Assembly (NCBI GenBank): GCA_020345805.1
Contig: CP070772.1
Coordinates: forward strand, 2,049,920 to 2,094,629
Source: Phycisphaerales bacterium
GTDB lineage: Bacteria > Planctomycetota > Phycisphaerae > Phycisphaerales > SM1A02
DNA length: 44,710 nucleotides
Direction of reading: 5' to 3'
Shown in pieces: positions 27,259 to 29,473 of the stretch. The notes under the pieces were generated by a model. That model searched no databases and was not told where the DNA came from. It saw nothing but the letters and a program-made list of their open reading frames with translations. The number at the start of each line of letters is the position of its first letter. Positions within the stretch are counted from its first letter, which is position 1. A program made the position numbers and the translations under genes.

Positions 27259-27856
27259 TGTTCATGCGGGTGATGAGATCGTCAGTGACGTCAAGCTGCG
27301 GATTGGCGTAAAGCATCCGCCTAGCGGAGATCTGGCGGGTCATCTCGGCTTCACTGACGCCGATAGGCAGCTCGACCGAGGAATCGTCGACGAACACGAT
27401 GTCGTAGCCGTTCTCTTCCGACATCGCTCGCACTGCCTTCTTTATCTTGCCATAGAGATTACGGACCATCCTGGCTCCTTCGGCATCGATCTTGCGCTTG
27501 ACGAACTCGATGAAGCCCTGGAACTCGTAAGCGGCCAGCGTGGCGGCCTCCATGGCGTTCTGGTGGGCTTCCGAACCCGCGGCGTAGTTCTGGATGTCCT
27601 CTTCGAGCATGTCCGCGCGGTCACGCAGTTCCTGCCCCCGGGCGTCCAGTTGTGCGACCATGTCCTCCAGGTCTGTCCGCGCTTGGGCTCGCTCGGCCAG
27701 TTCGTTGAAGGCCCTTTCCAGATCCACGCACGCGATTACCGCCGGTCCGAGCGGGGCCATGTTTCGGGTGGCGGTTGATTCGTATGTCACCAGGGCGGCG
27801 ATCGCCACCAGGACGGCAACGATCGGCCCGTTGAATCGCTCGTTTAATGACTGCAT
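27233..27856 (-). CDS. OmpH/Skp-family periplasmic chaperone
   Basis: A 207-residue protein. A hydrophobic signal or anchor segment spans residues 11-24 (PIVAVLVAIAALVTY). The first mature strand IACVDLERAFNEL is followed by long charged helices (residues 48-145) and then the C-terminal strands YDIVFVDDSSVELPI, the Skp pattern. Skp holds unfolded outer-membrane proteins in the periplasm. The start is the ATG ending at 27856; upstream in-frame codons overlap the terminator and the leader hairpin, so they are not used. It heads the lpxD-lpxC/fabZ-lpxA operon, but no bamA gene precedes it in this window. A leader with a terminator lies 108 bases upstream. Confidence 0.85.
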   Translation of the reverse strand: MQSLNERFNGPIVAVLVAIAALVTYESTATRNMAPLGPAVIACVDLERAFNELAERAQARTDLEDMVAQLDARGQELRDRADMLEEDIQNYAAGSEAHQNAMEAATLAAYEFQGFIEFVKRKIDAEGARMVRNLYGKIKKAVRAMSEENGYDIVFVDDSSVELPIGVSEAEMTRQISARRMLYANPQLDVTDDLITRMNNAFAAGNP

Positions 27857-27963
27857 CACGTCCAGACCCTTGTTCTGTTGTTCTTGTGGTCGCGATCCGG
27901 CACTCTGCCTAACGCGGCCGTGGGCGATTGTATCGCGGCCGCCGCTGGCGGAGGGCAAAACGG

Positions 27964-27996
27964 AAAAATCCCGGCGATCCGTGGACCGCCGGGATT
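27964..27996 (-). terminator. Intrinsic terminator or attenuator upstream of ompH
   Basis: Read on the minus strand, a 10-bp perfect stem (27987-27996 with 27967-27976), extendable inwards by 3 bp, is followed by TTT directly after two T of the stem, giving TTTTT then CCGTTTT. It is 108 bases upstream of the ompH start and downstream of the tiny Cys-rich ORF. It may end a short independent RNA, or attenuate transcription into the ompH-lpx operon. Confidence 0.8.
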
Positions 27997-28014
27997 CTTG
28001 TATGGATGTGTCGG

Positions 28015-28062
28015 GCTGCACTCCGTGCACTAGCCCGTCGGGCGCACGGTCAGTAGTGCAGC
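28015..28062 (-). ncRNA. Nested leader hairpin overlapping the end of the tiny ORF
   Basis: Three coaxial stems nest: 8 bp (28055-28062 with 28015-28022), 6 bp (28044-28049 with 28023-28028) and 4 bp (28040-28043 with 28033-28036), with a 3-base loop. The 5' arm lies within the last codons of the tiny ORF. A competing fold at 28012-28037 (6 bp plus 4 bp with a 3-base bulge) uses the same bases. This mutually exclusive pairing is typical of translation-sensitive attenuators; that role is inferred. Confidence 0.5.
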
Positions 28063-28091
28063 CCCCTCATACAGTCACATAAGCATTTCAC
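28050..28091 (-). CDS. Tiny Cys-rich ORF (13 codons), possible leader peptide
   Basis: A GTG-initiated frame encodes (V/M)KCLCDCMRGLHY followed by TGA. Cys occupies positions 3, 5 and 7. The start is preceded, 7 bases upstream, by AGGAGG inside AAAGGAGGTGATCCAG (28092-28107 region), which is complementary over about 16 bases to the near-universal 3' end of 16S rRNA. Such an extended Shine-Dalgarno sequence is unlikely by chance. The stop codon lies just past the 5' arm of the nested hairpin. It may be a regulatory leader peptide, a very small protein, or a ribosome-binding decoy RNA. Confidence 0.5.
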   Translation of the reverse strand: MKCLCDCMRGLHY

Positions 28092-28313
28092 TGGATCACC
28101 TCCTTTTCAAGAACGGCCTGTCCCAGCCGTCACAGGCGTGACCACCTGCCGCCGGGTTGTTTTTCCCCGCAGCGTCCCGCGGGGCACACCGCCCGCAGGC
28201 GCGCCCGTGGATCCGAAAGGGCGCCTGCGCTCGTCGCGGCCCGCTCACGACGCCCGGCAGGGGGTTTTCCTCTGGTTTGCCGGTCGCTGACCGCGATACC
28301 GCATTATCGCCTC

Positions 28314-28392
28314 GAAATCGGCCACGACAACAGAAAAGGCCGGAAATCGACCACGCGATTCCGCCGATGGATCCGGGGCGAGAAGTCGGCCG
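28314..28392. repeat. Three operator-like direct repeats, consensus GAARTCGRCC
   Basis: GAAATCGGCCACG (28314-28326) recurs with one change as GAAATCGACCACG (28343-28355), and a shorter relative, GAAGTCGGCC, starts at 28382. They are 29 and 39 bases apart and lie upstream of the GINT1-like gene. They could be repeated binding sites for a regulator. Confidence 0.35.
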
Positions 28393-28492
28393 AAAAGCGC
28401 CGGTGAAAGCAATCGGTTTGGCTGATGTTGGGATGTTGCCGGCTCCGTTCGGTTTGATGCGATTCGATTCGATTAACCCCGGAGAGGACTGA

Positions 28493-29473
28493 ATGGCGAG
28501 GCGGTTGAAGATTGCCCGGAAGACAGCCGTCGCCCCGGCCGGGGCCGCCCTGCTCCTGGGGCTCGCCCTCGGCTTGGCCGTGGGGGCCAGGCGCGGCGTG
28601 CCGTTCGTGGGGAACTCCCGCGCCTGGTCGATCGGCGTCTATGCCGGACCTTCACCGCTGGAGGTCGTACCCGCCGAAGGGATCACCAATCCCGTGCTGA
28701 CCGCCGCGGACGTGACCGACGCGGACGCGGTGTTCGTCGCCGATCCATTCCTCGTTCGCGCCGGGGATGACTGGTGCATGTTCTTCGAGGTTCTCAAGAA
28801 GGACACCGGCAAAGGGGCAATCGGGCTGGCCACCAGCAGCGACGGCCTTTGCTGGACATATCAGCAGATCGTGCTCGAGGAACCGTTCCACCTGTCCTAT
28901 CCGTGCGTGTTCGAATACGCCGGCGACTGGTACATGGTCCCCGAGTCCCACGAAGCGGGCGAGGTGCGCTTGTATCGGGCGAGCGAGTTCCCCACGCGCT
29001 GGGAGTATGAGGCCACATTGCTGGACGAACCCTATGTGGATTCCACTGTCTTTCAGCACGCCGGGTCGTGGTGGATGTTCACCTCCCTGGGGGCGGAGAT
29101 GCTGAAGCTTTATTGGGCCGAGGAGCCGGCCGGGCCCTGGACGGAACATCCCCAAAGCCCGCTCATCCTGGCCGATCCTCACATCACGCGCGCCGGAGGC
29201 CGGGTGCTGGCAGTTGAAGGTAAGCTGTACCGGCTCGCCCAGGACACGGTGCCGACCTACGGCAACCAGGTGCGGGCCTTCGAGATCACCGAGCTGACGC
29301 GGACCACCTATGCGGAGCGCGAGGCGCCGAACAACCCCGTCATCGGACAGACCGGCTCCGGCTGGAACGGCCTGGGCATGCACCAGCTTGACGCCCTGCC
29401 CCGCGACGACGGGGGATGGATCGCCGCAGTGGACGGCTACGGTGACAAGCTCGTCTACGGATGGCGATACTGA
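28493..29473 (+). CDS. Membrane-anchored GINT1-N / GH43-like five-bladed beta-propeller protein
   Basis: A 326-residue protein. A transmembrane or signal-anchor segment (about 13-32) is followed by a five-bladed propeller with the pattern seen in the N-terminal domain of glucosamine inositolphosphorylceramide transferase and in GH43/GH32-like proteins. Examples are VFVADPFLVRAGDDWCMFFEV, GAIGLATSSDGLCWTYQQIV, EEPFHLSYPCVFEYAGDWY, MVPESHEAGEVRLYR, and DSTVFQHAGSWWMFTS. Asp and Glu residues at the propeller centre are conserved, but I cannot name a catalytic pair. It may bind or cleave a sugar at the cell surface. The ATG follows GGAGAGG at good spacing. The GH95 gene follows 78 bases downstream in the same direction. 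Confidence 0.75.
   Translation: MARRLKIARKTAVAPAGAALLLGLALGLAVGARRGVPFVGNSRAWSIGVYAGPSPLEVVPAEGITNPVLTAADVTDADAVFVADPFLVRAGDDWCMFFEVLKKDTGKGAIGLATSSDGLCWTYQQIVLEEPFHLSYPCVFEYAGDWYMVPESHEAGEVRLYRASEFPTRWEYEATLLDEPYVDSTVFQHAGSWWMFTSLGAEMLKLYWAEEPAGPWTEHPQSPLILADPHITRAGGRVLAVEGKLYRLAQDTVPTYGNQVRAFEITELTRTTYAEREAPNNPVIGQTGSGWNGLGMHQLDALPRDDGGWIAAVDGYGDKLVYGWRY

Follow-up and report, generated by a model that had tools for sequence, protein, structure and literature searches.

A structured RNA with a short conserved reading frame in Planctomycetota, probably free-standing and translated

The window (the whole 44,710-nt stretch analysed here) contains on its minus strand a tiny reading frame, with ompH (OmpH domain), lpxD and lpxC-fabZ just downstream on the same strand and a divergent gene (28493-29473) upstream. 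The first-pass annotation had reported this frame behind a long Shine-Dalgarno (SD) sequence, AAAGGAGGTGATCCAG, and its coordinates proved exact on re-reading: a GTG start (28091-28089) opens 13 codons, V-K-C-L-C-D-C-M-R-G-L-H-Y, with cysteines at positions 3, 5 and 7 and a TGA stop (28052-28050). The minus strand reads ...TTGAAAAGGAGGTGATCCAGTGAAATGCTTATGTGACTGTATGAGGGGGCTGCACTACTGACC..., and the 16S genes of relatives end ...CTGGATCACCTCCTTT, which is AAAGGAGGTGATCCAGCC on the opposite strand. No 16S gene is detectable in the source MAG (80% complete), and complementarity was therefore judged on the relatives' tails, which confirm that the match to the 16S 3' end runs over 16 bases, as proposed. 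AAAGGAGGTGATCCA occurs only once in the 3.94-Mb genome, and AAAGGAGGTGAT is the sole perfect match within the window. Both other frames are shut by conserved UGA triplets (28091-28072), one within GUGA at the start and one within U-GAC in the ORF. Across 47 compared ORFs the U of the latter never changes, even though the codon that it completes varies widely.

The feature is larger than first described, being the 3' part of an RNA of about 335 nt (about 28297 to 27963; Table 1), whose fold has an energy of -172.5 kcal/mol (z -4.6 against shuffles). Conservation among homologues extends upstream to a CGATA..T box, found at a similar distance in 60 of 119 distinct loci versus 10 after shuffling; the window's copy of the box forms the -10 element of the promoter-like site. 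The bases just 3' of the box pair with the segment before GACGA to form a 5' closing helix, for which own-genome partners gave a mean of 6.36 bp compared with 5.50 when partners were swapped (maximum of 200 swaps, 6.07). At the other end, a terminator-like site follows hairpin P2 at 94 of 116 loci versus 18 of 107 shuffled. Two folds of the region gave the window's terminator hairpin, which is absent from the list of a stricter consensus terminator scan of the window.

Table 1. Elements of the RNA locus, in window coordinates.
Feature	Position	Strand	Remarks
Promoter-like site TTGTCG-16-GATAAT	28303..28330	-	sole sigma-70-like site in 27800-28500
Full RNA (inferred), ~335 nt	27963..28297	-	promoter-like site to T-run; predicted ends
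Hairpin PA, CCCCGC-GGGACGCT-GCGGGG	28165..28184	-	helix 1; compensatory changes in 6/6 pairs
Hairpin P1, CCCGGC..GCTGGG + inner stem	28122..28156	-	helices 2-3; compensatory changes in 7/10 pairs
Shine-Dalgarno AAAGGAGGTGATCCAG	28091..28106	-	16-base complementarity to 16S 3' end; near-universal in homologues
13-codon ORF VKCLCDCMRGLHY + TGA	28050..28091	-	frame conservation
Hairpin P2, 5' arm GGGCTGCAC(T), 3' arm GTGCAGCCC	28013..28064	-	helix 4; compensatory changes in 7/9 pairs
Inner hairpins P3/P4, CCGTGC..GCACGG around CCCGACGGG	28023..28049	-	helices 5-6; present in window fold
Intrinsic terminator AATCCCGGCGGTCC-ACGG-ATCGCCGGGATT + TTTTT	27964..27996	-	two folds of region

Comparison of homologues indicates that the PA, P1 and P2 helices are conserved. 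In alignment A4, made with MAFFT and not fitted to the structure, which had been drawn from a single member, standard pairs occupy 93.5% of cells and double-sided changes occur at 23 of 33 pairs. Cells with double changes numbered 162 versus 40.9 in shuffles, none of 500 shuffles being as good, and the covariation score was 0.440 versus 0.195 for shuffled alignments and about 0.10 or less with slid partners. The inner hairpins show some compensatory changes in P3 and one-sided changes only in P4. The 5' arm of P2 lies inside the ORF, where it covers the codons for Gly-Leu-His-Tyr, and the SD is unpaired in the consensus structure, in a single-stranded linker.

How widespread is this RNA? Exact 15-mer matches in relatives are nearly all 16S ends, so searches either required a start codon or used a covariance model. 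One exact 15-mer (L008, genome G027) does precede another 13-codon frame, VTNRSDRTKGLRG-stop. The search requiring a start codon recovered this site again (L031), the window itself (L032), a chance match (L037) and four further genomes with the element (L033-L036), in which similarity goes beyond the ORF to an upstream hairpin, TTATGTGACTGTA within the ORF, a hairpin at the ORF end and then a terminator. A covariance model from five sequences (R1) found one copy each in 70 of 181 genomes of the family. A second model from 39 sequences (R2) was run on 397 genomes of the class, with matches in 120, and on 343 genomes sampled across the phylum, with matches in 63; the best matches outside the class reached E about 5e-21. 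Confident matches are single-copy. G259 and G264 each gave two or three weak ones at around 23 bits, which probably represent 16S antisense, as the match L210 does. Named records from the pattern search all belong to Planctomycetota, mostly Phycisphaerales MAGs. The distribution is patchy: with laxer filters, 26 high-quality genomes lacking a match still yielded nothing except L210, and a search for AAGGAGGTGAT plus a start codon in 23 genomes lacking the RNA returned mainly ordinary genes and no clear diverged copy. Since many high-quality genomes of the same family have no detectable copy, the RNA is either dispensable or diverged past detection in them.

The comparison with close relatives suggested by the first-pass annotation found both the frame and the SD conserved. 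The search model in part imposes the SD; it does not impose the stop, whose sequence varies. Several features of the ORF emerged: (i) in all 39 members of A4 the distance from the start to the 5' arm of P2 is a multiple of three (27, 24 or 21 nt); (ii) an in-frame stop lies exactly 3 nt past the P2 arm in 32 of these members, and 6 or 15 nt past it in the remaining seven (g19-like), with TAA (17), TGA (12) and TAG (10) all in use and the other two frames closing early; and (iii) the 108 distinct ORFs from all loci are every one of 6-18 codons, starting with GTG (83), ATG (17) or TTG (8) and ending with TAG (41), TAA (39) or TGA (28). In two distant members the ORF ends after 6-7 codons. At the eighth codon before the stop, Asp is replaced only by Glu. 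The flanks of GAC, a T before and a TGT behind, hardly vary; such near-fixed bases imply constraint on the RNA letters as well, and ORF conservation is therefore in part not translational. Judged by these comparisons, the tiny reading frame is genuine, its frame, start and stop being kept in dozens of genera far beyond chance, and this conservation argues that it is under selection as an ORF.

The peptide otherwise drifts over class and phylum (VDIGNRRWLP, LRNHGDSARGSGS, VDSYCCSQKGGCT, VPSQIGELP). Short Cys-rich uORFs act as cysteine-responsive attenuators in mycobacteria, and a leader peptide had been among the roles suggested for the window's frame. The three cysteines are not a kept set: Cys3 is peculiar to the window's genome, the other two are replaced in many members, and Cys is absent altogether from some members (VTSETMKGLHR*, VIQIREHLQEMHS, VPSQIGELP). 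With no conserved run of Cys codons, and no conserved downstream gene to be attenuated, cysteine-responsive attenuation is not borne out. The cysS uORFC-8-2 (PMC8632094) and the mycobacterial Cys-rich uORFs resemble the window RNA in having a short ORF with Cys codons, then a hairpin and a terminator, and differ from it in that here the Cys codons are unconserved and no Cys-metabolism gene lies downstream.

The proposed link to the lipid A genes fared no better. In relatives, the adjoining genes, identified by eye from sequence, include ftsK, a pilT-like gene, acyl-CoA carboxylase, a release factor, an EF-G-like gene and others, in either orientation, so that no same-strand downstream gene is conserved. 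The RNA also has its own promoter-like site and terminator, and these sequence-level sites together with the variable neighbours are the signals that it stands alone. Because the neighbours vary in identity and orientation, we conclude on comparative grounds that the RNA is very probably not a leader or switch for the lipid A genes. Of the first-pass proposal, the short conserved ORF with its extreme SD stands, and the lipid A link and cysteine attenuation are not supported. Past the RNA's terminator, ompH has a promoter-like GATACAAT box of its own (27856-27930) and need not depend on read-through; a gene caller might start ompH too early, at a GTG (28030) that lies within the RNA. In one other class (L190, L206), the RNA is flanked by a gene for a peptide chain release factor and, on the opposite strand, by a glutamyl-tRNA-synthetase-like gene, and EF-G-like translation genes adjoin it in L161 and lie near it in L169, a proximity to translation genes that may be due to chance.

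No Rfam 15 family matched the window at gathering score, weak matches appearing only at E up to 10. The Caulobacter sRNA CC2171 (RF01867), which is likewise a free-standing sRNA and contains AAAGGAGGUGAUCCAGUG, scored at best 26.9 bits (20-27) against a gathering threshold of 75; it shares with the window RNA the SD and GUG, the rest being unalignable. PreQ1-III at relaxed Rfam thresholds was a chance-level match, and tmRNA was rejected, as RF00023 has no match in the window and tmRNA is encoded separately, far away from this RNA, in six relatives. The nearest layout is that of the fthC motif (uORFC-39-1, Streptococcus; PMC11109978), a cis-regulator found in one genus upstream of one fixed gene, with P1, an SD-like purine stretch and start in a linker, P2 often with an in-frame stop, and a terminator. 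Unlike fthC, the window RNA has no fixed gene, carries its own promoter-like site and is phylum-wide. The cyanobacterial Downstream-peptide/yfr6 RNA (RF01704; PMC2864571), a glnA-like aptamer 5' UTR before ORFs of 17-100 aa, is similar as a free transcript of about 250 nt with a structured 5' part, a short conserved ORF and indels in threes. It differs from the window RNA, which has no Rfam match, an ORF of 6-18 codons and structure that flanks the ORF on both sides and extends into it.

The literature searched, with most subscription papers and preprints outside its scope, held no description of this RNA, no paper mentioning CC2171 together with Caulobacter and no published small-RNA family of Planctomycetota; Planctomycetes are absent from the ncRNA surveys examined apart from one table entry. 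One RNA may both act as RNA and encode a small protein, as in the dual-function sRNAs SgrS/SgrT, Spot 42/SpfP and AzuCR. The window RNA has no homology to these, and its ORF is shorter and its peptide poorly conserved.

What could such an RNA do? We consider it probable that it is a free-standing, translated (dual-function) structured RNA in which the terminating ribosome opens a hairpin begun inside the ORF. A 30S subunit would bind the SD, from which the ORF should be translated very efficiently, and the ribosome would read about a dozen codons. At termination its A site would stand one codon beyond the 5' arm of P2. The footprint of this ribosome would hold P2 (and P3/P4) melted, and the untranslated RNA would fold P2, a step suggested by the geometry and by general knowledge of ribosome footprints. 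The selected trait would then be the loading and stopping of a ribosome at that place, the peptide sequence carrying little weight. Translation might thereby switch the RNA back and forth between two conformations, or shield it from degradation, so that its activity would depend on initiation, and the output would presumably be a trans-acting RNA or RNA-protein function. Our confidence applies to a translated stand-alone RNA working in this outline and is lower for any specific output. As one such output, we tentatively raise a ribosome-supply sensor, a possibility we hold to be on the unlikely side: the high-affinity binding site and dozen-codon ORF would serve solely to park a terminating ribosome on the hairpin, and the shape, stability or partner binding of the RNA would report free, competent ribosomes, in trans and with no downstream gene.

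Other readings place the function elsewhere. If the RNA were mere mRNA for a functional peptide of 9-14 residues, frame conservation would follow, and Asp/Glu, Cys, Lys/Arg and Gly-Leu do recur in the window's order, in a consensus ([VM]xxxCDCxxGLHx) that looks peptide-like. However, the sequence changes freely over class and phylum, the P2 arm accounts for Gly-Leu-His, and some 300 nt of surrounding covarying structure would be needless, which makes a micropeptide gene distinctly unlikely. The up to 16 complementary bases, the open SD and the lack of a consistent SD partner would suit a decoy in which the long anti-16S match titrates ribosomes or masks the 16S tail and the ORF is incidental. 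Yet some members drop one base in the extended match (GATCAGTG), shortening the complementarity, and an incidental ORF would neither hold its frame through 3- and 6-nt deletions nor keep three kinds of stop codon at one site. We therefore regard a decoy as improbable.

Slightly more improbable still is a cis-acting leader or attenuator, in which ribosome position would decide terminator formation and so control the ompH-lpxD-lpxC operon. The operon does lie just downstream on the same strand, and the ORF, P2 and terminator stand in attenuator order. However, relatives' downstream genes differ and are often oppositely oriented, the terminator is present at most loci regardless of the next gene, and no competing antiterminator pairing was seen in folds or otherwise established. 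That the feature is an artefact, either 16S 3'-terminal antisense or an SD arising by chance in a GC-rich gap, has next to no probability: the string does occur on the opposite strand of 16S ends, and among the weak matches at least L210 (about 20 bits) is such antisense, but in the strong matches this reading is already refuted, the sequence after the SD being unrelated to 16S and the covariation, promoter, terminator and frame conserved.

Planctomycetota is a large phylum with unusual cell biology, and a structured RNA present in one copy per genome in several of its classes, and absent from Rfam, is a direct target for study. Annotation missed the RNA, as its ORF falls below the minimum length of gene callers. 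Ribosome control of the uORF type and a downstream gene, usually paired, come apart here. Since the ORF layout is kept where there is no gene for it to control, translation as the switch of a trans-acting RNA becomes testable.

Sequestration of the SD by an internal anti-SD was considered and rejected, as it gave no consistent signal across the family. Pairing of UCAC in the P1 loop with GUGA of the SD is present in many members but not in all, and the SD varies too little for covariation to show. Two distant members of the phylum (L199, L200) carry GATCACCTC, a copy of the 16S tail, about 95 nt downstream and 3' of their own ORF, which could pair with their own SD. Another (L202) combines a variant SD (GTGTTCC) with a downstream GGAACCTC that looks compensatory. 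The G027 locus (L031/L008) keeps the SD and 13-codon frame, with the P1 region far upstream or rearranged and the remainder of the RNA diverged (27.6 bits, model positions 52-143 only). Finally, L224 in genome G220, which has no model match, shows AAGGAGGTGATTTGGGTG and then a 9-codon ORF, VNSFFYPLL, and is possibly a diverged copy.
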